From: Bacteroidota bacterium
GTDB lineage: Bacteria; Bacteroidota; Bacteroidia; Chitinophagales; Saprospiraceae
Assembly (NCBI GenBank): GCA_029567325.1
Contig: JAKQLF010000007.1
Location: 1-32,024, forward strand
Length of the DNA stretch: 32,024 bases
Direction of reading: 5' to 3'
Under the pieces are notes generated by a model. That model was not told where the DNA came from, made no database searches, and saw nothing but the letters and a program-made list of their open reading frames with translations. The position numbers and the translations under genes are program-made. Positions 3,132 through 13,021 of the stretch are shown here, in pieces (positions within the stretch are counted from its first letter, which is position 1; each line of letters opens with the position of its first letter).

Positions 3132-4445
3132 TTATCTTTTTTTATAAAATCCACTCATAACGTCTTCCATCATTTTACTTATCTCATCATTGCAGAGGTT
3201 GTAAATACTGCCTTCATGCGCTTTGTCTTCATCTATAGCAAGGTTTGGTTTGGTGTAATTTCCATTGTTTACATCATTTCCCACTTGCTTGTATGCATCT
3301 CTGAAAGGGATACCTTTCATCACCAATTCATTCACAGATTCTACAGTGAACAGCAATTTGTATTGATCATTATCCAGAATTCCTGTAGTGATTTTGATAT
3401 TTGATAACATCAAAATGACCATTTCTATACATGCTTTCATTTCTTCTATGGCAGGAAATAACATTTCTTTGGTGAGCTGCATTTCACGGTGATATCCAGA
3501 AGGTAAATTGGTCATCATCATGGTCATCTCATTTGGCAAAGCCTGGATTCGATTACACTTACCTCTTACCAATTCGAAAACATCAGGGTTCTTTTTATGA
3601 GGCATAATAGAGCTACCTGTAGTCAAATGATCTGGAAAAGTTATAAAACCAAAGTTTTGATTCATATATAAACAACAATCCAAACTGAGTTTAGCTAAGG
3701 TTGCTGCCAGATAGGATAGGGAAGTGGCTACAGTTTTCTCAGCCTTACCTCTTGTCATTTGTGCGTAGACTGCATTCCAGTTTAGTTGATCAAACTCCAA
3801 AAGCTCTGTGGTTCGTTTTCTGTTTAAGGGAAAAGTAGAACCATAACCTGCACCTGAACCCAGAGGATTTTTATTTACAACTTTATAAGCAGCAAGCAAC
3901 ATTTCAGTATCATCAATCAAAGACTCTGCATAAGCTCCAAACCATTGCCCAAAACTCGAAGGCATTGCCAATTGTAAGTGCGTATAACCAGGCAACCCAT
4001 AAGATTTATATTCCTCACTTTTCTCGATCAATAAATCAAAGAGCTTTTTAACCTGGTCTTTTAATGACAATATCTCTGCCCTTAAATATAATTTGATGTC
4101 AACTGCTACTTGATCATTTCTTGACCTGCCACTGTGTATCATTTTACCAACTTCGCCAATGTTTTGGGTCAATTGCATTTCTACTTGAGAATGCACATCC
4201 TCCACATGATCATCGATGGCAAAATTACCTGCTTCGATTTCATGCAAAATCTTTTTTAAACCAACAACTGCTTGCTCTGATTCTGCCTGAGTCATCAAAC
4301 CAACTTCTCCAAGCATCGTAACGTGTGCAATGGAGCCAAGTACATCATACTTTGCTAACAGTACGTCAAACTCTTTATCTCGACCTACCGTGAAACGTTC
4401 AATTGTTTCATTTACAGAAGCACCTTCTTTTTGCCAAAGTTTCAT
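3132..4445 (-). CDS. argH: Argininosuccinate lyase
   Basis: Splits argininosuccinate into arginine and fumarate, the last step of arginine synthesis. The 437-residue length is slightly short of the common 460. The aspartase/fumarase superfamily signature GSSIMPHKKNPD is present in the last third and carries the mobile catalytic loop serine. The other family blocks are visible: SRSRNDQ-type GRSRNDQVAVDIKL near residue 108, and LPGYTHLQLAMPSSFGQW containing the catalytic-base region around TH. The N-terminus MKLWQKEGASVNETIERFTVGRD is the usual opening for Bacteroidota ArgH. There are 12 bp between this start and the argE stop upstream, and its own stop abuts the glycosyltransferase start, so it belongs to the long arg operon. 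Confidence 0.95.
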   Translation of the reverse strand: MKLWQKEGASVNETIERFTVGRDKEFDVLLAKYDVLGSIAHVTMLGEVGLMTQAESEQAVVGLKKILHEIEAGNFAIDDHVEDVHSQVEMQLTQNIGEVGKMIHSGRSRNDQVAVDIKLYLRAEILSLKDQVKKLFDLLIEKSEEYKSYGLPGYTHLQLAMPSSFGQWFGAYAESLIDDTEMLLAAYKVVNKNPLGSGAGYGSTFPLNRKRTTELLEFDQLNWNAVYAQMTRGKAEKTVATSLSYLAATLAKLSLDCCLYMNQNFGFITFPDHLTTGSSIMPHKKNPDVFELVRGKCNRIQALPNEMTMMMTNLPSGYHREMQLTKEMLFPAIEEMKACIEMVILMLSNIKITTGILDNDQYKLLFTVESVNELVMKGIPFRDAYKQVGNDVNNGNYTKPNLAIDEDKAHEGSIYNLCNDEISKMMEDVMSGFYKKR

Positions 4446-4457
4446 ATTGTTACTGTA

Positions 4458-5561
4458 TTATTTTGGACTTGCGACCATTTTTATCAAAGTTATATAATCT
4501 TCAATTCCCTTGGTGATTTCATCTAAATAAATAAACTCATTTGGAGAATGTGACCTGGCAGAATCCCCCGGACCCATTTTTAATGCAGGGAAAGGCATTA
4601 AAGCTTTATCTGAAGTAGTTGGTGAACCATAAGTTGTATTCCCCATTTCAATACCCGCCTTTACAATTGGATGACTTTCATGGATGATAGACGATTTTAA
4701 TCGTGTACTTCTGGGGGTTATTGTAGCTCTCAAATTTTCTCTTAAGATTTTCAGCACTTCTTCAAAAGTGTACAACTCATTGATTCTACAATCCAAAACA
4801 TAATTACAAGTTGCAGGAACCACATTGTGCGCCTTATTTTCAGTTTGAATGACTGTTGGGGTTATTTTTACTGGACCCAAGAAATCAGAAACTTTTTCAA
4901 ATAATTTGGCTGCATTCAAGTTTGATAAATCTTGAATGGTTTTTACTAATGCATTATCTCCTTCTTCTCTGGCTGCATGTCCAGCCTTACCTTCTGTGAC
5001 CGCGTCAATGACCATCAAACCTCTTTCAGCAATGGCCAGATTCATCAAAGTAGGTTCTCCAACGATACCGAAATCATCACCTTTTCCAGTAAAAGGGAAA
5101 ATAGAAGCATCTTGAGCCAACAGATATTCTATTCCATTTTTCCCCGAGATTTCTTCCTCAGCTGTTGCTGCGATGATTAAGTTATAAGTAAGTGCTTTAT
5201 CATTTAAGTACAAAAAAGTGCAAATCAGAGAAACTAACGGGCCACCTGCATCATTGCTTCCCAAGCCATAAAGTTTGCCGTCTTCAACTAAAGCTTTAAA
5301 TGGATCTATGGTATAATTGCTATTCGGTTTTACGGTATCATGGTGGCTATTAAGTAAAATGGTCGGTTTATTTGGGTCAAAATTTTTGGAAACGGCAAAT
5401 ACATTATTCAAAACACGCTGAGGATTGGCCTGGTGTTTATCGAAAAAGTTAACCAATACTTCTGCAGTTTGATCTTCCTCTTTACTGAATGAAGGTGTTT
5501 CAATTAACTCCTTTAATAAAGTAATTGCCTCGTTTTGCCAATATGTAATTTCCTTATCCAA
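4458..5561 (-). CDS. argE: M20-family N-acyl-citrulline/ornithine deacylase (ArgE type)
   Basis: A zinc-dependent M20 peptidase of 367 residues. Metal-binding and catalytic motifs are in order: NSHHDTVKP (His73 and Asp75), GLGSNDAGGP (bridging Asp105), AATAEEEISG (Glu136-138, general base and ligand), and a C-terminal GPGDSARSHSPNEF His. In organisms with an ArgF'-type carbamoyltransferase this enzyme removes the acyl group from N-acyl-citrulline rather than from N-acyl-ornithine; given its neighbour, that is the likely reaction here. The only usable start is TTG at 5561, which overlaps the last 8 bases of argB and has AAAGGA about 9 bases upstream. No ATG occurs before conserved sequence. 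It may instead be annotated as a generic M20 peptidase or DapE; the arg context argues against DapE. Confidence 0.88.
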   Translation of the reverse strand: MDKEITYWQNEAITLLKELIETPSFSKEEDQTAEVLVNFFDKHQANPQRVLNNVFAVSKNFDPNKPTILLNSHHDTVKPNSNYTIDPFKALVEDGKLYGLGSNDAGGPLVSLICTFLYLNDKALTYNLIIAATAEEEISGKNGIEYLLAQDASIFPFTGKGDDFGIVGEPTLMNLAIAERGLMVIDAVTEGKAGHAAREEGDNALVKTIQDLSNLNAAKLFEKVSDFLGPVKITPTVIQTENKAHNVVPATCNYVLDCRINELYTFEEVLKILRENLRATITPRSTRLKSSIIHESHPIVKAGIEMGNTTYGSPTTSDKALMPFPALKMGPGDSARSHSPNEFIYLDEITKGIEDYITLIKMVASPK

Positions 5562-6333
5562 TGGTGGTTCCTTTAATACCCGTTATCAGCATATCTAAGT
5601 GATCTGCATTCCCAATGATCACACTTTTCAAACCTTTTTCAATAGCCATAAAGGCATTATCCAGTTTAGGAATCATACCGGCAAAAATTTTACCTGCTGA
5701 TTTAAGATCATTATAATAATCGAGATCAAGTTTAGATATTACTGAGTCTTCATCATTCACATCCAAAAGCACTCCTTCTTTTTCAAATGAGTAAATAAGA
5801 GTTGTGTCATAAATCGATGCCATTGCACACGCAACTTCTTGTGCGACAGTATCAGCATTGGTATTAAGTAAGGTTCCTTTTTGGTCGTGTGTAATCGGAG
5901 CAATAATAGGCACAACCTCTTGATCCAGAAGTTGATTTAATAACCTTTGATTGACTAAATCAACATCACCTACGAACCCATAATCAATGTTTGCCCCAGT
6001 GCGTTTATGACTTTTGATGAGATTTCCATCGGCACCGCACAATCCTAAGGCATTGCAAGACAAAGACTGCAATTTTGCTACTATTTTTTTATTGATGAGA
6101 CCTACATAAACCATGGTTACAATTTCCAACGTTTGTGCATCCGTTATTCTTCGTCCATTGACCATTGTTTGTTCAATGCCCATTTTTTCTGCAAGACTGG
6201 TAGCAATTTTTCCACCGCCATGGATCAAAATTTTTGAACCTTCAATTTTTGCAAATTCTGTCAGAAAATGGTTTAATTTATCAACATCATCCACGATGTT
6301 GCCACCTATTTTGACAACGTGAAGTCGATTCAT
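5554..6333 (-). CDS. argB: N-acylglutamate kinase
   Basis: Amino-acid kinase family enzyme that phosphorylates N-acetyl- or N-succinyl-glutamate. With the start at 6333 the protein has 259 residues, normal for the family. VVKIGGNIVDD (residues 6-16) is the phosphate-binding K-x-G-G block, LIHGGGKIATSLAEK (about 37-51) the second glycine-rich block, and GMIPKLDNAFMAIEKG the C-terminal ATP/acylglutamate block with its conserved Lys. The reading frame extends upstream to 6372, but ATG 6333 gives MNRLHVVKIGG and overlaps the argF' stop as ATGA, the standard coupled arrangement, so I choose it. It overlaps the TTG start of argE by 8 bases at its end. No feedback-type N-terminal helix extension is seen. 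Confidence 0.93.
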   Translation of the reverse strand: MNRLHVVKIGGNIVDDVDKLNHFLTEFAKIEGSKILIHGGGKIATSLAEKMGIEQTMVNGRRITDAQTLEIVTMVYVGLINKKIVAKLQSLSCNALGLCGADGNLIKSHKRTGANIDYGFVGDVDLVNQRLLNQLLDQEVVPIIAPITHDQKGTLLNTNADTVAQEVACAMASIYDTTLIYSFEKEGVLLDVNDEDSVISKLDLDYYNDLKSAGKIFAGMIPKLDNAFMAIEKGLKSVIIGNADHLDMLITGIKGTTIG

Positions 6334-7280
6334 CTTTTCAAAATATTGGAAATGACAGCTTGTGCAGCCCAAACCCTATTTCCAGCCTGATGTGTCACGA
6401 TGCTATTGGGGCCGTCTAAAACTTCGCCGCTCAATTCTATATTTCTTCTTACTGGTAGACAATGCATCACTTTTGCATCATTGGTTTTTTCAAGGTGTTT
6501 TTGAGTCAACATCCATGATGAGTCATAACTCAAAAGTGCTCCATAATCTTTATAACTCGACCAGTTTTTTACATAAACAAAATCAGCTCCTTCCAAAGCT
6601 TCATCTTGATTGTGGGTGATGGTTGCTCCGTTTGTATAATCCTCATTGAGCTCATATCCCTCGGGATGGGTGATGACAAAATCAGCTTTTCCCCACTTAT
6701 TAACCCATTGCGCAAAACTATTTGATACACAATGTGGAATGGATTTGATGTGAGGGGCCCAAGTAAGAACAACTTTTGGTCTTCTAATAGTTGACCCCAA
6801 TTCGGTCATGGTCACGATGTCGGCCAAACTTTGCAAAGGATGTAAAGTGGCGCTTTCCAAACTGATCACAGGAATACCAGAATATTTGATTACTTGTTTA
6901 ATGATGTGTTCACTGTAATCATCTTCTCTATTTTTGAATGCAGGAAAGGATCTCAAAGCCAAGACGTCAAAATATTGGCCGAAAACCCGAGCTGCGTCTT
7001 TTATATGTTCTACCGTCGTACCATTCATAATGGCGTCGTCCTCAAATTCCAAGGCCCATCCTTCACTTCCTGCATTCAGGACGATGGCTTCCATACCCAA
7101 GTTCTTCGCAGCGATTTGTGTGCTGAGTCTTGTCCGCATGCTTGGATTCATGAAAATACATCCAATCCTTTTTCCACTGCCAAGTGTATTATTTTTGAAT
7201 GGGTTTGCTTTGTAAGCAAGAGCAGTCTGAACCAAACTTTCTATGTCAGGAACATCATGCGCCGATATGAACTGCTTCAT
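6330..7280 (-). CDS. argF': N-succinyl- (or N-acetyl-) ornithine carbamoyltransferase
   Basis: Transfers the carbamoyl group to an acylated ornithine, giving acyl-citrulline. At 316 residues it aligns without gaps through residue 90 with the Bacteroides fragilis enzyme as I remember it. The carbamoyl-phosphate loop is NPSMRTRLSTQ (residues 45-55); HPLQSLAD (about 147) and HCLPVRRN near the C-terminus are the other active-site blocks. The long GWALEFEDDAIMNGTTVEH loop is the acyl-ornithine hallmark absent from ordinary OTC. Residue 90 is Val, where Pro marks the succinyl enzyme and Glu (residue 92 in Xanthomonas) the acetyl enzyme. Published single mutants, as I recall, place Val with the succinyl group. 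It overlaps argD by 26 bp and argB by 4 bp. Confidence 0.93.
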   Translation of the reverse strand: MKQFISAHDVPDIESLVQTALAYKANPFKNNTLGSGKRIGCIFMNPSMRTRLSTQIAAKNLGMEAIVLNAGSEGWALEFEDDAIMNGTTVEHIKDAARVFGQYFDVLALRSFPAFKNREDDYSEHIIKQVIKYSGIPVISLESATLHPLQSLADIVTMTELGSTIRRPKVVLTWAPHIKSIPHCVSNSFAQWVNKWGKADFVITHPEGYELNEDYTNGATITHNQDEALEGADFVYVKNWSSYKDYGALLSYDSSWMLTQKHLEKTNDAKVMHCLPVRRNIELSGEVLDGPNSIVTHQAGNRVWAAQAVISNILKR

Positions 7281-8418
7281 CTTTTGTTACTTGTAATTCT
7301 TGAGAAATCGCAGCCAAAAATTGGTTGCATTCGTTTTCGTTGATGGCTAATGAAGGAAGAAGTCGGACAACATTTGGTTTTGCTGAACCCGTAAAAATGT
7401 GTCTGTTGTTCAACAGTTTTGATCTAATGTCCTTGTTTTGGTCATCTGGATCCCAACCAATCATTAAACCCTTGCCTCTGAGATTATTAATCCCTGGTAG
7501 CTGACTCAAACCTTTCATCAAAAGTGCACCCATTTGTAAGGTGTTTTCCAGTAAATTTTCGTCTCTAATCACTTCCAATACTGCAATCGCAGCCGCACAT
7601 GCTAAATGGTTTCCGCCAAAAGTGGTGCCCAACATACCATGTTTTGGCTTCAAATGTGGTGCAATAGAAATTGCGCCAATAGGAAAACCATTGCCCATTC
7701 CCTTAGCCATTGTATAGATGTCGGCATTGACACCTGCACTGTCGTGGGCGTAAAATAAACCAGATCGACCGTATCCACACTGAACACTGTCAGCTATATA
7801 AACACTTCCATATTGGTCACATAAAGATCTGATTGCCAATAGAAATTCGTCGGTGCAAACATGTATGCCTCCTATTCCTTGAATGCCTTCCACAATGACA
7901 GCAGCTATTTTATCACCTTGATTTTTGAAAATATCAGTGAGTGCTTCAATATCATTGAGGTCTGAAAAAATAATGTTATCAGTTTCATTGATTGGCGCTA
8001 CCAAAGCTGGATTGTCTGTTGCAGCTACCGCCAATGAAGTTCGACCATGAAATCCCTTCCTAAATGCCACTACTTTTTTTCTTCCTGTATGAAACGAAGC
8101 AAGTTTAAGTGCATTTTCGTTAGCCTCAGCGCCACTATTCACCAAAAAAAGTTGATAATCTTCCTTTTTTGAAATTCTACCAAGCAAATCAGCAAGTTCT
8201 TCTTGCAGTGATATGATGATGGAATTCGAATAGAAAGCCAATGTTTCTGTTTGATGTTGCAATTTCCTTACCCAATGAGGATGACAATGGCCAATACTGA
8301 TGACAGCATGACCGCCATACATGTCCAAGTATTCAACTCCATTTTTGTCCCAAACGAAACTGCCTTTTCCTTTGCTGATTTCAATTTGGTTGATAGGATA
8401 TACATCAAATAGTTTCAT
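7255..8418 (-). CDS. argD: Acylornithine aminotransferase
   Basis: Class III PLP-dependent aminotransferase (387 residues) that converts N-acylglutamate semialdehyde plus glutamate to N-acylornithine. NSGAEANE (94-101) is the phosphate cup, KGFHGRT (121-127) the usual family segment, and TMAKGMGNGFPIGA holds the Schiff-base Lys239. The PLP-nitrogen Asp210 is in IADSVQCGYGRSG; most relatives have DE(V/I)Q here, so the Glu to Ser change at 211 is slightly unusual. There is a 62-bp gap to argC upstream, the longest inside the operon, with no promoter box that I can recognise. The gene overlaps the argF' start by 26 bp. In a succinyl pathway it would act on N-succinylornithine. Confidence 0.92.
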   Translation of the reverse strand: MKLFDVYPINQIEISKGKGSFVWDKNGVEYLDMYGGHAVISIGHCHPHWVRKLQHQTETLAFYSNSIIISLQEELADLLGRISKKEDYQLFLVNSGAEANENALKLASFHTGRKKVVAFRKGFHGRTSLAVAATDNPALVAPINETDNIIFSDLNDIEALTDIFKNQGDKIAAVIVEGIQGIGGIHVCTDEFLLAIRSLCDQYGSVYIADSVQCGYGRSGLFYAHDSAGVNADIYTMAKGMGNGFPIGAISIAPHLKPKHGMLGTTFGGNHLACAAAIAVLEVIRDENLLENTLQMGALLMKGLSQLPGINNLRGKGLMIGWDPDDQNKDIRSKLLNNRHIFTGSAKPNVVRLLPSLAINENECNQFLAAISQELQVTKDEAVHIGA

Positions 8419-8480
8419 TTTATTTTTATTTTGATGGTTTAATATTGGTGAGTCAATTTATTAAATATCAACATATTAGC

Positions 8481-9464
8481 TTAAAATAGATTTGCTTTTA
8501 AATTCAAACCAAGCGTTTCTTCTTGTCCAAAAATTAAGTTCATATTTTGAATGGCCTGACCGCTTGCTCCTTTGACTAAATTGTCAATGATACTGTGAAT
8601 AACCAATTGGTCACCATTTTTTTCTAATTGAATATTGGCATAATTGGTATTGACCACCTGTTTTAAATGAATGTCACTTTGGGAAAGATAGGTGAATGGA
8701 TGGTCTTTATAAAAATCAACATACATTTCTGTAAGTTCATCAAGTGAAACATTACAATTTATTTGAGAAGAAATAAATATTCCTCGTGTGAAATCACCCC
8801 TCCAAGGCACAAAATGAATGCCCGGTTTATTGCCATTTTGTAAAACAGATAGTGATTCTCCAATTTCACCAACGTGTTGATGTGTCAGCGTTTTGTAGGC
8901 TTGGATATTGTTTGCCCTCCAAGAAAAATGACCCGTTGCGGAAAGAGATTGCCCAGCGCCTGTTGAGCCAGTAATCCCAGTCGTGTATACATCATTCAAT
9001 AAATTATGAGCTGCCAGAGGAAGTAAACCAAGCTGAATGGCTGTAGCAAAACAGCCAGGATTGGCAATATATTGGGCTTCTTTAATTTTATCTCTATTCA
9101 TTTCTGGAAGGCCATAGATGAATTGTTTATCTCCTGATTTTGATTTTTCAGCTAGTCTGAAATCATGGGAAAGGTCGATGACTTTTAATCGGTCGGGTAG
9201 TTCATGCTGTTCCATAAATTTGACAGCTTCTCCATGACCAGTTGTGAGGAACAAAACATCGCACTCACTCCAGGCTTCTGAATCTGTAAAATATAACTCC
9301 GAATAAAAAAGGTCTTGATGTACACTACCTATGGGTTTGCCCGCATTACTTTTACTATTGATCAAATCAATTGAAACTGCTGGATGATTGATGAGTATTC
9401 TCAATAGTTCGCCACTGGTGTACCCAGCGCCGCCAACAATTCCTACTTTGATCTTTTCTGACAT
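8481..9464 (-). CDS. argC: N-acyl-gamma-glutamyl-phosphate reductase
   Basis: NADPH-dependent reductase of the acylglutamyl phosphate made by ArgB. With ATG at 9464 it has 327 residues. VGIVGGAGYTSGELLRIL (residues 7-24) is the nucleotide-binding glycine motif and ANPGCFATAIQLGLLPL carries the catalytic Cys138. The later HQHVGEIGE segment holds the conserved His region. The frame runs upstream to 9545, but those 27 extra residues lie inside argG and lack family similarity, while MSEKIKVGIVGG is the expected start. Only 4 bp separate the argG stop from this ATG. It is a confident member of the arg operon. Confidence 0.95.
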   Translation of the reverse strand: MSEKIKVGIVGGAGYTSGELLRILINHPAVSIDLINSKSNAGKPIGSVHQDLFYSELYFTDSEAWSECDVLFLTTGHGEAVKFMEQHELPDRLKVIDLSHDFRLAEKSKSGDKQFIYGLPEMNRDKIKEAQYIANPGCFATAIQLGLLPLAAHNLLNDVYTTGITGSTGAGQSLSATGHFSWRANNIQAYKTLTHQHVGEIGESLSVLQNGNKPGIHFVPWRGDFTRGIFISSQINCNVSLDELTEMYVDFYKDHPFTYLSQSDIHLKQVVNTNYANIQLEKNGDQLVIHSIIDNLVKGASGQAIQNMNLIFGQEETLGLNLKANLF

Positions 9465-9468
9465 CGGT

Positions 9469-10674
9469 TTAGTTTTTGTTATCTTCTTGTATTTTATGAT
9501 AAATACCCGTCTGATTGCCAAAAATTTTGCTGAAGCCACGCACATCTGTTCCAGTCCAGCCGGTGTTCATCTCACCATAGCTTCCAAACTTTTTACTCAT
9601 CAAATCAAAATCAGATTGGATGCCAATCATTTGATATCTGTATGGATTTAGTTGAATGAAAACATCACCAGTAACATTCTTTTGAGAAGAAGTAAGTAAT
9701 GCTTCGATGTCTCTCATAACTGGGTCCATGATCTGGCCTTCGTGAAGCCAAGTGCCATAAAACATAGACAATTGGTCTTTCCATGACAATTGCCATTTGG
9801 TAAGCACATGTTTTTCTAATGCGTGGTGGGCTTTGATGATCAAAATTGGTGCAGCGGCTTCAAAACCTACTCTTCCTTTGATGCCGATGATCGTATCCCC
9901 CACGTGAATGTCTCTGCCTATACCATAAGGTCCCGCAATTGCTTGAAGGGCATATATTGCATCTACTGGATGGTCATATGTTTGGCCATTTACAGCAGTA
10001 AGTTCACCTTTTTCAAAATGTAAAACGACCTCTTCAGTAGTAGTTTTGGTAACTTGAGTAGGCCATGCTTCCTCAGGCAGAATACCTTTTGAATTTAGAG
10101 TTTCTCTTCCTCCAACACTTGTTCCCCAAAGGCCTTTGTTGATAGAGTAGGCTGCCTTTGCAAAATTCATAGAGACACCGCGCTCAGTTAAATATTCTAT
10201 TTCTGCTTCTCGGCTTAGTTTTAGATCTCTGATGGGTGTGATGATTTCTACATCCGGTATCATGATGTGAAAAACCATATCAAATCTTACTTGATCATTT
10301 CCCGCACCTGTGCTTCCATGGGCAACGGCTGTTGCACCCATTTTTTTCACATGTTCAGCAATGTGTAAAGCTTGAATTAATCTTTCAGCGCTCACACTGA
10401 GTGGATAAGTATTGTTTTTTAATACATTGCCAAAAATTAAATATTTGATGATGTCCTCATAATAGGTTTTGGTTGCATCGACACTAGTGTGGCTCACAAC
10501 ACCAAGTTTGTAAGCATGAGCTTCTATCTTTTTTAGTTCTTCTTCATCAAAACCACCTGTATTCACTACAATGGAATGTACGTCAAACCCTCTGTCTTCA
10601 GTAAGGTATTTTACGCAAAAAGATGTATCGAGGCCTCCGCTAAATCCGAGTACAATTTGTGGTCTTGCAGACAT
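9469..10674 (-). CDS. argG: Argininosuccinate synthase
   Basis: Joins citrulline and aspartate using ATP. The 401-residue protein opens with the N-type ATP pyrophosphatase P-loop FSGGLDTSF (residues 10-18), followed by HGSTGAGNDQVRFD and SVGGRETLNSKG blocks that bind citrulline and aspartate. Residues HEGQIMDPVMRDIEALL lie toward the C-terminus. Start ATG 10674 gives MSARPQIVLGFSGG, matching family openings. It is the second gene of the operon, 36 bp after the GNAT gene and 4 bp before argC. Placement of argG ahead of argC is typical of Bacteroidota arg clusters, to my knowledge. Confidence 0.95.
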   Translation of the reverse strand: MSARPQIVLGFSGGLDTSFCVKYLTEDRGFDVHSIVVNTGGFDEEELKKIEAHAYKLGVVSHTSVDATKTYYEDIIKYLIFGNVLKNNTYPLSVSAERLIQALHIAEHVKKMGATAVAHGSTGAGNDQVRFDMVFHIMIPDVEIITPIRDLKLSREAEIEYLTERGVSMNFAKAAYSINKGLWGTSVGGRETLNSKGILPEEAWPTQVTKTTTEEVVLHFEKGELTAVNGQTYDHPVDAIYALQAIAGPYGIGRDIHVGDTIIGIKGRVGFEAAAPILIIKAHHALEKHVLTKWQLSWKDQLSMFYGTWLHEGQIMDPVMRDIEALLTSSQKNVTGDVFIQLNPYRYQMIGIQSDFDLMSKKFGSYGEMNTGWTGTDVRGFSKIFGNQTGIYHKIQEDNKN

Positions 10675-10710
10675 TTATTTTTAATTATTGACTGTTATTA
10701 AAATATAAGT

Positions 10711-11445
10711 TTAGTTAGAGAAAACAAGTTTACTCGATTGCACTGCCATATTCCTAAGTCCAGTGCTTATTCTCATGTGTTTGTTTTTGACGGCACTTCC
10801 TTTTTTTGAAAATGGACGCAACATTTTTAATTTTTTGAGACGCATAAACCGGTCATAAATTTCTGCATTTTCTTTGAAGTCTTGTTTGGTTTCTTCAATT
10901 GTAAAATGATCTTCAGGATCATAAAGCATTGCAGTGCACATGCAGTTTTTATGTTCTTTTGAAACCAAGATGTCATAATTCACGCAGCTTTTACATCCGT
11001 TCCAAAACTTTACATCTTTGGTTAATTCAGAATAGGTAACAGGCTCATATCCCAAATCACTATTGATCTTCATAACAGCGAGACCGGTGGTAAGTCCAAA
11101 AATCTTTGCTTGTGGGTATTTTTCTCTGGATAAATTGAATATTCGTTGTTTGATAGACTTTGCAATTCCTGTTTTTCTAAATTCAGGCGCTACAATCAAA
11201 CCAGAGTTTGCTACATAGTCTCCATCCCAGGTCTCGATGTAACAAAAACCAACCCATACCAGATCGTCAGTAAGCGCAATTACTGCTTTGCCTTCCTCCA
11301 TTTTTTGTTGTATGTATTCTGGAGATCTTTTAGCAATTCCGGTACCTCTTGCCTTGGCAGAAGCTTCCATTTCATTGACTATTGTTTCTGCGAATGCTAA
11401 GTGGTTTGAGTCGGCAATCAAAATATTGATGTCTTGATGTCTCAT
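10711..11445 (-). CDS. GNAT N-acyltransferase, probable N-acylglutamate synthase
   Basis: First gene of the arg operon and the only candidate for the first committed step, acylation of glutamate. The 244-residue protein has a GNAT fold: GFCYIETWDGDYVANSGLIV forms the central strands, and VAPEFRKTGIAKSI (85-98) is the CoA pyrophosphate loop of the R-x-x-G-x-A type. After the GNAT core there is a Cys cluster, FWNGCKSCVNYDIL then NCMC (Cys151, 154, 168, 170), and a basic helical tail. No amino-acid kinase domain or ArgJ is present, so it differs from classical ArgA/ArgJ. I recall genetic work in Bacteroidota assigning acylglutamate synthase to GNAT proteins in this position; here that is inferred. 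Acyl donor (acetyl- or succinyl-CoA) is open. Confidence 0.78.
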   Translation of the reverse strand: MRHQDINILIADSNHLAFAETIVNEMEASAKARGTGIAKRSPEYIQQKMEEGKAVIALTDDLVWVGFCYIETWDGDYVANSGLIVAPEFRKTGIAKSIKQRIFNLSREKYPQAKIFGLTTGLAVMKINSDLGYEPVTYSELTKDVKFWNGCKSCVNYDILVSKEHKNCMCTAMLYDPEDHFTIEETKQDFKENAEIYDRFMRLKKLKMLRPFSKKGSAVKNKHMRISTGLRNMAVQSSKLVFSN

Positions 11446-11481
11446 TTATAATTTGAACGTAAATAAATTGTTATATTAAAT

Positions 11482-11532
11482 AAAAAAATTATATGACCGA
11501 AAAGTATTCGGCAGATGCAAAAATAAACATCT
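11482..11532 (-). promoter_or_regulatory. Two tandem stem-loops in the arg operon leader, with U-tract (possible attenuator)
   Basis: Read on the minus strand just after the leader peptide stop. Hairpin 1 is AGATG-N10-CATCT (11532-11513, perfect 5-bp stem). Hairpin 2 is GCCGAA-N5-TTCGGT (11512-11496, 5 pairs plus one G-U). A run of seven T follows at 11488-11482, seven bases past the stem. Hairpin 2 therefore resembles a weak intrinsic terminator or a translational attenuator, placed 37-50 bp before the GNAT gene. The loop of hairpin 1 also reads TATTTTTG (11525-11518), an exact TAnnTTTG box, so a second promoter here is the alternative explanation. Confidence 0.45.
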
Positions 11533-11548
11533 TTGGAAGTGGTAAATT

Positions 11549-11680
11549 CTAACGCCTATGCCTGATGGCAACAGGGATTGCTGTAAAAACTGTATTGGGC
11601 AATACAGAAAAAACCCCACGCAATATAGCCCTTGTAGTAACAAGAGCATCAGCGATGATTATGGTGAGATTTTTATTCAT
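11549..11680 (-). CDS. Arginine-operon leader peptide (43 aa, Arg-rich C-terminus)
   Basis: A small ORF too short for routine calling. ATG 11680 gives MNKNLTIIIADALVTTRAIL, and the peptide ends AIPVAIRHRR followed by TAG at 11551-11549. Five of 43 codons are Arg (AGG, CGT, AGG, AGG, CGT), three of them in the last four codons, an arrangement expected of a leader whose translation senses charged arginyl-tRNA. An exact TAnnTTTG box sits 35 bp upstream, and the two stem-loops described at 11482-11532 follow. The next gene, GNAT-argG and the whole arginine pathway, starts 103 bp after its stop on the same strand. The sequence is not a known toxin or membrane peptide that I recognise. The opposite strand is also open here by chance, but lacks such context. 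The reading frame is seen; the regulatory role is inferred. Confidence 0.65.
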   Translation of the reverse strand: MNKNLTIIIADALVTTRAILRGVFSVLPNTVFTAIPVAIRHRR

Positions 11681-11714
11681 TATCTTTAATGATAAATTTG
11701 TTTAAAAAGTGGGA

Positions 11715-11722
11715 CAAATGTA
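11715..11722 (-). promoter_or_regulatory. Probable arg operon promoter, -7 box TACATTTG
   Basis: On the minus strand TACATTTG matches TAnnTTTG exactly. Transcription would begin near 11708, giving about 28 untranslated bases before the leader peptide ATG. No well-spaced TTTG at -33 is seen; an ATTG occurs only 11 bases upstream of the box. The box lies in the 412-bp gap between the GNAT and lycopene cyclase genes, of which the leader peptide and stem-loops occupy the arg-proximal part. Confidence 0.55.
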
Positions 11723-11857: not shown

Positions 11858-13021
11858 TTGACGAAAGTATTGGAAAAAAGTTACATTGATTATGATATTG
11901 TTATCGGTGGAGGCGGTGCTGCGGGACTGAGCTTAGCCTATAGATTGGCAAATTCCGCTTTCAGCCATTTAAAAATTCTGATAATAGAACCTGATTCCAA
12001 ACAAGGAAATGACCATACTTGGTGTTCTTGGTTGGAAGGAGAGCATATTTTTGATGAATGCGCAACAACGTTTTACTCAAACATCATATTCAAATCAAAA
12101 TATTTAACTAAGTCTTATCCCATATTTCCTTACCGTTATCGCCTGATCTCTGCTGATAAGTTTTACAATTATGTTTTGGAGGAAATTTCAAATTGTGATC
12201 ACATTTCCATAAAGCAAGGGAAAATCGAAAGTTTTGAAGAAACGGCAAATTGCGTTCAATTGAAAATGGAAGATCAAACTTCCTATCAATGTAGACAGTT
12301 TTTCAAATGTTACATCGATCATCTGCCTTCAACAAAGGATTGTTTATACGTTGATCAACATTTTAAAGGTTGGTGGATTGAAACCCAAGGTGAGGAGTTT
12401 GAAACAGAAACTTGTACTTTGATGGACTTTAAAATTGATCAGGCAGGCGAGGTAAGATTTATGTATGTTTTGCCTATTTCAAAAACTAAAGCGCTTGTTG
12501 AAGTTGCCATTTTTTCCAATAACTTATTATCCCAAGAAGCTTATGATCATATTTTGGGAAAATATATTGAAGACCATTTAAGCCTGAAGCAATATCATAT
12601 TACAGAAAAGGAGTTTGGTGTCATTCCAATGACAGATTATGATTTTAAAAAGTACAACACCCAAAAGGTTATAGCGATTGGTTCTGCAGGTGGAGCAATA
12701 AAGCCCTCAACAGGATATGCTTTTAGTCAGATACAGGTACAGTGTGACTACATCGTTAATTGTCTGAATGAAGGAAAGGAAATTGATATGCGAAAAACGA
12801 AACCGCTCAGGCAAATTATGTATGATAAAACCTTTCTATCGGTTTTATTATTTGGCGATGTTCCTGGAGACAAAGTTTTTTCTGACCTTTTTGAAAAGAA
12901 TAAACCTCAGCAGATTTTTAAATTTCTTGATGAACGGACAAACATTTTGGAAGAGCTTAAAATCATGTCTACCTGCGATATTGGTTTATTTACCAAGGCT
13001 TTGATTAGGATAATGAAGTAA
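11858..13021 (+). CDS. crtY: Lycopene beta-cyclase (CrtY/CrtL family)
   Basis: Flavin-dependent cyclase that would close the ends of lycopene to make beta-carotene at the membrane. Residues 13-29 (DIVIGGGGAAGLSLAYR) are the dinucleotide-binding fold. NDHTWCSW (51-58) is the conserved post-fold motif of CrtY-type enzymes. FMYVLPISKTKALVE and, near the C-terminus, IAIGSAGGAIKPSTGYAFSQIQ (the KPSTGY motif) are strong family marks. The length of 387 is typical. No ATG is available: an in-frame TAG stands two codons before TTG 11858, so TTG 11858 or TTG 11870 must be the start. No other carotenoid gene is in the window; the gene is divergent from the arg operon. The product name is secure, the substrate inferred. 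Confidence 0.9.
   Translation: MTKVLEKSYIDYDIVIGGGGAAGLSLAYRLANSAFSHLKILIIEPDSKQGNDHTWCSWLEGEHIFDECATTFYSNIIFKSKYLTKSYPIFPYRYRLISADKFYNYVLEEISNCDHISIKQGKIESFEETANCVQLKMEDQTSYQCRQFFKCYIDHLPSTKDCLYVDQHFKGWWIETQGEEFETETCTLMDFKIDQAGEVRFMYVLPISKTKALVEVAIFSNNLLSQEAYDHILGKYIEDHLSLKQYHITEKEFGVIPMTDYDFKKYNTQKVIAIGSAGGAIKPSTGYAFSQIQVQCDYIVNCLNEGKEIDMRKTKPLRQIMYDKTFLSVLLFGDVPGDKVFSDLFEKNKPQQIFKFLDERTNILEELKIMSTCDIGLFTKALIRIMK

Follow-up and report, generated by a model that had tools for sequence, protein, structure and literature searches.

The papers that we searched do not say by what means Bacteroidota that lack ArgR might regulate arginine synthesis, and the locus described here offers an answer. 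A search for the ArgR domain (PF01316) in 80 genomes, that of the window (G000) included, detected it in none; in the control set it was present in 9 of 14 named genomes, E. coli, B. subtilis and a Bacteroides being three of them. The window, by which we mean the whole stretch of 32,024 nt that was analysed, carries a short ORF ahead of an arginine operon. We propose, with a probability of roughly 80%, that this ORF encodes an arginine leader peptide and acts by ribosome-mediated attenuation driven by the supply of arginyl-tRNA.

For this minus-strand ORF the first-pass annotation had claimed 43 codons, an IRHRR end, an upstream TAnnTTTG box and a position 103 nt ahead of a complete arg operon, and all of this was borne out when the sequence was re-read (Table 1). 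The ORF is translated as MNKNLTIIIADALVTTRAILRGVFSVLPNTVFTAIPVAIRHRR, starting with MNKNL and ending with RHRR (peptide ends are given up to the stop codon throughout), and closes with the codons AGG CAT AGG CGT TAG. The box, TACATTTG, fits TAnnTTTG, which we take to be the consensus of the promoter -7 box, and leaves 34 nt to the ATG; the leader stop lies 103 nt from the start of the acetyltransferase gene. Among the 50 leaders of the window's type described below (type A), TTTG is present 25-50 nt 5' of the ATG in 49, compared to 5.0 in shuffles, and the full TAnnTTTG box in just seven. Pfam supports argG, argC, argD, a carbamoyltransferase gene, argB, argE and argH behind the leader, and the GNAT match of the operon's first gene is weak (PF00583, 20.1 bits vs. 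a cut-off of 20.7). Searches with the leader peptides gave no match in Pfam (window peptide and one type-A relative, PF10940/DUF2618 included) or in NCBIfam (five peptides). On the plus strand a gene at 11858-13021, which by eye presumably resembles a lycopene cyclase gene, diverges from the leader, with its listed start less than about 200 bp from the leader start.

Table 1. Features of the leader region and of the arg operon in the window
Feature	Position	Strand	Basis
Putative promoter -7 box TACATTTG (fits TAnnTTTG)	11715..11722	-	sequence; type-A TTTG counts
43-codon leader ORF MNKNL...RHRR	11549..11680	-	50-sequence alignment A3 and codon test
P1 5' arm AAAAAUCUCAC, just inside start codon	11664..11674	-	helix pairing over 50 sequences
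P2 hairpin, enclosed by P1	11628..11647	-	MFE fold; cross-species conservation by eye
P1 3' arm GUGGGGUUUUU, encodes ..RGVF	11609..11619	-	helix pairing over 50 sequences
P3 hairpin CUGUAUUGCCCAAUACAG, within ORF, 5' of Arg codons	11590..11607	-	pairing and covariation
U-run directly after P3, terminator-like or pause-like	11585..11589	-	TTTTT in 46/50
Proposed sensor codons AGG CAT AGG CGT (Arg-His-Arg-Arg)	11552..11563	-	tail counts; Arg enrichment
Small hairpin after stop, position of relatives' P5	11514..11531	-	predicted fold
Candidate terminator stem GCCGAA-UACUU-UUCGGU	11496..11512	-	scan of 801 bases and fold
U7 run downstream of candidate terminator stem	11482..11488	-	sequence
GNAT acetyltransferase, first gene of operon	10711..11445	-	three GNAT models, best E 0.0002, all under Pfam cut-offs
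argG, argininosuccinate synthase	9469..10674	-	Pfam
argC (semialdehyde dehydrogenase domains)	8481..9545	-	Pfam
argD (class-III aminotransferase)	7255..8418	-	Pfam
argF' carbamoyltransferase	6330..7280	-	Pfam
argB (amino acid kinase)	5554..6372	-	Pfam; listed start may be too far upstream
argE (M20 peptidase family)	4458..5561	-	Pfam
argH, argininosuccinate lyase	3132..4445	-	Pfam

The first-pass annotation had let its reading stand or fall in part with the conservation of the frame and of the Arg tail in related species, and both are conserved. In 298 genomes of the order, 63 gave a match at E<=1, mostly partial chance matches; six full-length relatives besides the window (E 1e-7 to 0.009) all belong to the Chitinophagaceae (family f20 of our set, f1 being the window's own family) and each lies before GNAT-argG. 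Two congeners in f1 (G865, G927) also carry the window's leader type, and a third genome of the genus (G176) has no match to the leader or to the acetyltransferase. For the alignment A3, 50 distinct type-A leaders were chosen by a pattern search upstream of the acetyltransferase. Their position before this gene is therefore given by construction, and the independent test is provided by 47 loci fetched through the leader (some of them the same genome twice). In 46 of these the leader is followed by the acetyltransferase and argG, and the remaining one, L069, is cut by the contig end. L069, type A by eye, was left out for this reason, and L062, also type A by eye, was missed by the pattern and is one of the 66 other f20 leaders in the counts below.

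All 50 type-A leaders share start and frame, and their lengths of 126 to 135 are all multiples of three. An Arg-Arg pair near the end is kept in 50/50, across Chitinophagaceae and the window's genus, the last four residues being RVRR (29), WVRR (7), LVRR (4), HVRR (3), VVRR (2) and, in single cases, RHRR, QVRR, YRRF, HRRF and WLRR. Single-base codon differences, counted over pairs that are not independent, amount to 1129 synonymous to 1084 nonsynonymous in the true frame, compared to 498:1626 and 397:1786 in the shifted frames. In 17 non-overlapping pairs of 34 representatives the true frame gives 72:87, and the shifted frames give 50:136 and 25:149. Judged by these substitution patterns, the window's leader ORF is a real gene under coding constraint.

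Since the leader is of a type found in Chitinophagaceae and the window belongs to f1, contamination of the contig was considered. It is unlikely, given that two congeners carry the same leader type. Their acetyltransferases are 81% and 71% identical to that of the window, and in a GNAT tree of 72 rows, drawn at random within groups and leaving out the window's own GNAT, both congeners are placed on the Chitinophagaceae side, away from most f1 rows. The tree suggests that the operon (window 3132-11680) moved together with its leader by transfer, which fits better than contamination. The leaders of the congeners (L105, L106) are one codon longer, ending RYRRF and RHRRF; the stop has moved and the Arg pair has stayed.

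Arg tails are not limited to type A. Across the phylum the acetyltransferase was used as bait, so that the leader had no part in the choice of loci; it matched in 124 of 296 genomes of the phylum, 89 of 199 of family f1 and 225 of 288 of family f20 (the sets overlap). The part of these matches that was read gave 207 distinct upstream regions, fetched only via the acetyltransferase. At 89 of the 207 loci, four or more of the last ten codons of a small upstream ORF encode Arg, compared to 4 loci for the reverse strand and 2.1 for dinucleotide shuffles; with a threshold of at least three Arg the numbers are 162, 42 and 14.5. The four-Arg tails are distributed over f1 (42/70), f20 (31/97), f28 (6/7), f23 (4/7), f43 (5/6) and f59 (1/1), the single f59 case being a GC-rich ORF 245 nt upstream that may be due to chance; none was seen in f25 (six loci), f24 (three loci) or the ten remaining loci. 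A set of 236 loci, which takes in fifty loci fetched through the leader (L002-L007, L031-L074) that are absent from the 207, and to which eight loci were added after removal of identical sequences, has 96 Arg tails (reverse strand 4, shuffles 2.0). Highest among the other 19 amino acids is Leu, with 9 tails vs. 17.4 in shuffles. Reduction to 143 cluster representatives leaves 62 Arg tails, vs. 4 and 1.5. This comparison of loci shows that, at the level of sequence, the Arg tail is favoured as an amino acid and is tied to this operon.

The peptides that carry these tails are dissimilar. Sorted by eye, which is also the basis for calling them unrelated, the leaders fall into at least five families with little in common except the Arg tail. 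Type A ends mostly in VRR, other Chitinophagaceae leaders in SRPRRRPVF, PRPRRGC or RPVRRPRI, f1 leaders for example in RRRFPRRP or FRRRRTSRRRP, and those of f23, f28 and f43 in SRRRVYSPRV, SPVRRRRYFFRV and FRIPRRR, respectively. The absence of ArgR is not a perfect complement of the leaders, because f25 and f24 genomes without ArgR show no leader here. At two f25 loci (L275, L279) a common short ORF without Arg tail, MNKISLHITSLSRT..., lies upstream of the acetyltransferase.

According to our model, transcription would start upstream of the ORF, and a ribosome would load on the nascent leader and trail RNA polymerase. With plentiful arginyl-tRNA the ribosome would pass the Arg cluster and reach the stop, and transcription would mostly end before the acetyltransferase gene. 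If arginyl-tRNA is short, the ribosome would be held on the Arg codons, the RNA around and after the stop would refold and the arg genes would be transcribed. The arginyl-tRNA sensor half of the model is well supported by the tails and the coding constraint; for the other half we infer both the direction of control and termination as the read-out.

Candidates for such a read-out follow the stop codon. At the window the scan gave one terminator site in 801 bases (shuffles 0.4, sd 0.6), with a U-run starting 7 nt after the stem, and a post-stop terminator scan across 184 leaders did not return this stem. The small hairpin P5 between stop and stem is partly conserved in relatives; for each of its pairs, 24 to 38 of 39 to 46 are paired. 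Beyond the stop, type A (23/50 vs. 3.1 in shuffles) and f1 (24/49 vs. 6.0) have an excess of terminator-like hairpins, as do, in small sets, f28 (3/7 vs. 0.4) and f43 (2/6 vs. 0.2); no such excess exists in the other f20 leaders (2/66 vs. 4.9) or in f23 (0/5). The predicted terminators hardly respond to the ribosome. When the RNA was masked up to a ribosome at the first tail Arg or at the stop, in a simple calculation that ignores kinetics and the RNA behind the ribosome, the mean terminator probability in 21 type-A leaders was 0.55 for a stalled ribosome, 0.63 for one at the stop and 0.55 for a stalled one when a segment was shuffled, and in 19 f1 leaders 0.48, 0.56 and 0.47, respectively. 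Stalling lowered it by at least 0.3 in 2/21 type-A leaders (control 1) and 2/19 f1 leaders (control 0). A simple trp-type switch, as far as ribosome-edge folding can represent it, thus brings about no more change than the shuffled control. Of the attenuation proposed in the first-pass annotation, the leader peptide with its conserved frame and Arg tail stands, and the refolding on an Arg pause is not supported by this test. Since the position of the ribosome hardly shifts the predicted terminator, the read-out may lie in intrinsic termination, in Rho or in the stability of the mRNA.

The alternative that survives best keeps the same Arg-codon sensor and dispenses with an intrinsic terminator, the position of the ribosome setting the access of Rho or the decay of the mRNA via a hairpin after the stop. 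We consider it a serious possibility that nevertheless falls clearly short of even odds. In 45 of the 66 other Chitinophagaceae leaders CUGAYAGG overlaps the stop and pairs with CCURUCAG (in 99.7% of the cells counted), and the group of 66 shows no excess of terminators after the stop. A precedent is Salmonella orf34 (speFL) of speF: as far as the available part of that report goes, this leader ORF senses arginine through consecutive Arg codons, its translation is needed to avoid early termination, a post-stop hairpin competes with the ribosome at the stop, and Rho and RNase G provide the read-out, with the Arg codons at positions 12-13 mattering and the one at the stop not (PMC6386406). The same source places orf34 in a gammaproteobacterium and in control of an ornithine decarboxylase, not of arginine synthesis (PMC6386406), and the window leader, with no PF10940 match and arg genes behind it, does not belong to this family. 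The enrichment of post-stop terminator-like hairpins in type A and f1 speaks against a read-out by Rho or decay, and the stop hairpin is nearly invariant and therefore covaries in one of nine pairs only. After the stop hairpin, some of the other Chitinophagaceae leaders (for example L158, L167 and L186) show by eye a GGAYUGGU motif and a weak hairpin.

Both this alternative and intrinsic termination read the Arg tail through tRNA supply. An arrest by the nascent peptide, as in TnaC and the fungal arginine attenuator peptide, would instead have the conserved end (VRR in type A) stall the ribosome at the stop on binding arginine or a related metabolite. VRR is indeed kept in 46/50 type-A leaders while the preceding residue varies (R, W, L, H, V, Q), and its Val codon changes synonymously (GTA/GTG in A3). 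However, the window leader ends RHRR and its congeners RYRRF and RHRRF, and apart from Arg no peptide motif is seen by eye to recur in the other families. In addition, most groups prefer Arg codons that are uncommon nearby, which points to tRNA supply, and altogether we regard arrest as unlikely.

This codon preference was seen in five of six groups, whose tail Arg codons are enriched for ones that the GNAT and argG segments at these loci seldom use. CGA makes up 53/159 tail Arg codons in type A and 112/227 in the other f20 leaders (vs. 5% in the segments for both), and 13/19 in f23 (vs. 3%); AGG accounts for 16/29 in f28 (vs. 6%) and CGG for 21/25 in f43 (vs. 10%), and the effect is weaker in f1 (CGT 81/224 vs. 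15%; CGC 81/224 vs. 33%), all counts being non-independent because related sequences share codons by descent. The window tail uses AGG, AGG and CGT, and the commonest Arg codon in 18 window genes is AGA (117/244). Sensor codons are in theory those whose tRNA charging drops first and not necessarily the rare ones; the available part of the source calls the rule of rare sensor codons an oversimplification and stresses selective tRNA charging (PMC1183508).

The most conserved structure of the type-A leaders lies within the ORF, before the Arg codons, and was absent from the first-pass annotation. Helix P1 is paired to 92.7% over 50 sequences with both-side changes in 3/11 pairs, and P3 to 98.3% with both-side changes in 6/6 counted pairs. 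The covariation score of P1 and P3 is 0.250 vs. 0.138, with 0/500 shuffles as high and slid controls far lower, and the window leader folds better than its own shuffles (z -3.77). A terminator-like hairpin within the ORF is present in 48/50 type-A leaders (vs. 9.7 in shuffles) and 25/66 other f20 leaders (vs. 9.4), and f1 shows no excess (5/49 vs. 5.4). P3 is made before the Arg codons, so these cannot control it. R21, which precedes P3, is missing from L221 and L222, and control by this residue was therefore discarded. In the window type P3 and its U-run may perhaps be a pause or checkpoint: they would hold RNA polymerase until the ribosome arrives, or would end untranslated transcripts. The in-ORF hairpin would be a new way, open to testing, of arranging a leader so that ribosome and RNA polymerase are kept in step.

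Strong covariation in P1 and P3 and the z of the window leader could also be expected from a structured RNA, a riboswitch or a protein-binding leader, that contains the ORF incidentally. We hold this to be very unlikely, as it has to account for the synonymous excess in the true frame, for 50 lengths that are all multiples of three and for the excess of Arg alone among 20 amino acids. Rfam moreover gave no match in the window nor over the leaders of 18 further loci, the one match among these 19 loci being an SRP RNA away from the leader. Most improbable of all is a leader gene that does not sense arginine and has the sole role of supplying the following gene with re-initiating ribosomes, which the available part of one paper proposes for leader genes 10-14 bp before the gene in several phyla including Bacteroidetes (PMC4833913). 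The window has a gap of 103 nt, type A and other Chitinophagaceae leaders have gaps of mostly about 80-140 nt, and the Arg tails are left unexplained.

Returning to the arginine leader peptide with ribosome-mediated attenuation, we tentatively extend it, at odds that we place a little below even, to the sampled families without ArgR. Arg leader peptides would govern arginine synthesis there and would have arisen or been remodelled several times, dissimilar peptides and folds converging on an Arg tail tuned in each family to particular, often uncommon codons. The window type would work in two stages: the in-ORF hairpin and U-run would test for a trailing ribosome, and the Arg tail would then test for arginyl-tRNA. 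The convergence of dissimilar leaders on one kind of tail, written in Arg codons that differ between them, provides a natural experiment on the arginyl-tRNA that is limiting in each lineage.

Amino-acid leader attenuators are represented by trpL, hisL, leuL, thrL and pheL in Proteobacteria and by trp, ilv and leu leaders in Actinobacteria. In its sequence features the window leader is of this kind: both sensor features that were tested, a coding-constrained ORF and the enrichment of end-product codons, are present, and a short end-product-rich ORF stands before a biosynthetic operon, accompanied by hairpins that overlap the ORF and come after it. It differs from the known cases in the amino acid sensed, arginine, in its Bacteroidota host and in the terminator-like hairpin that the window type has within the ORF before the sensor codons. 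In known attenuators the position of the ribosome sets the alternative pairing, whereas the predicted folds gave no such effect here. The fungal arginine attenuator peptide, an uORF peptide, represses arginine synthesis when arginine is high; unlike our model, it is a eukaryotic translational arrest by free arginine via the nascent chain and not transcription attenuation.

Our search of the open-licence literature found no leader peptide for arginine biosynthesis. Trp-codon ORFs are carried by the Bacteroid-trp motif. This motif (RF01692) is a 5' element in the same phylum (PMC2864571, available part), and for Flavobacterium psychrophilum the available part of one study describes hints of leader-peptide attenuation ahead of amino-acid operons; it names elements before pheA and hisG, among others, and none for arg (PMC9723704). 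Both resemble the window leader in phylum and in their place 5' of amino-acid operons. In 2010, according to the available portion of a paper that added its own Firmicutes case, no leader-peptide system was known outside Proteobacteria and Actinobacteria, ermC apart (PMC2965389). The Arg-tailed leaders would add arginine biosynthesis to the pathways with amino-acid leader peptides, and would do so widely in a phylum for which the sources at hand give clues only for other operons.

Among the listed ORFs of the window genome no obvious cognate leader was seen by eye for hisG and ilvC. Elsewhere in this genome (L286, G000:C230, minus strand) the ORF MINQSWWWRIEITYNGIE contains three consecutive Trp codons and ends 96 nt before trpE; an Rfam search with it gave no match up to E 1. 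To judge from its codons and position, it is likely a tryptophan leader peptide, and this suggests that leader-peptide control in this genome is not confined to arginine.
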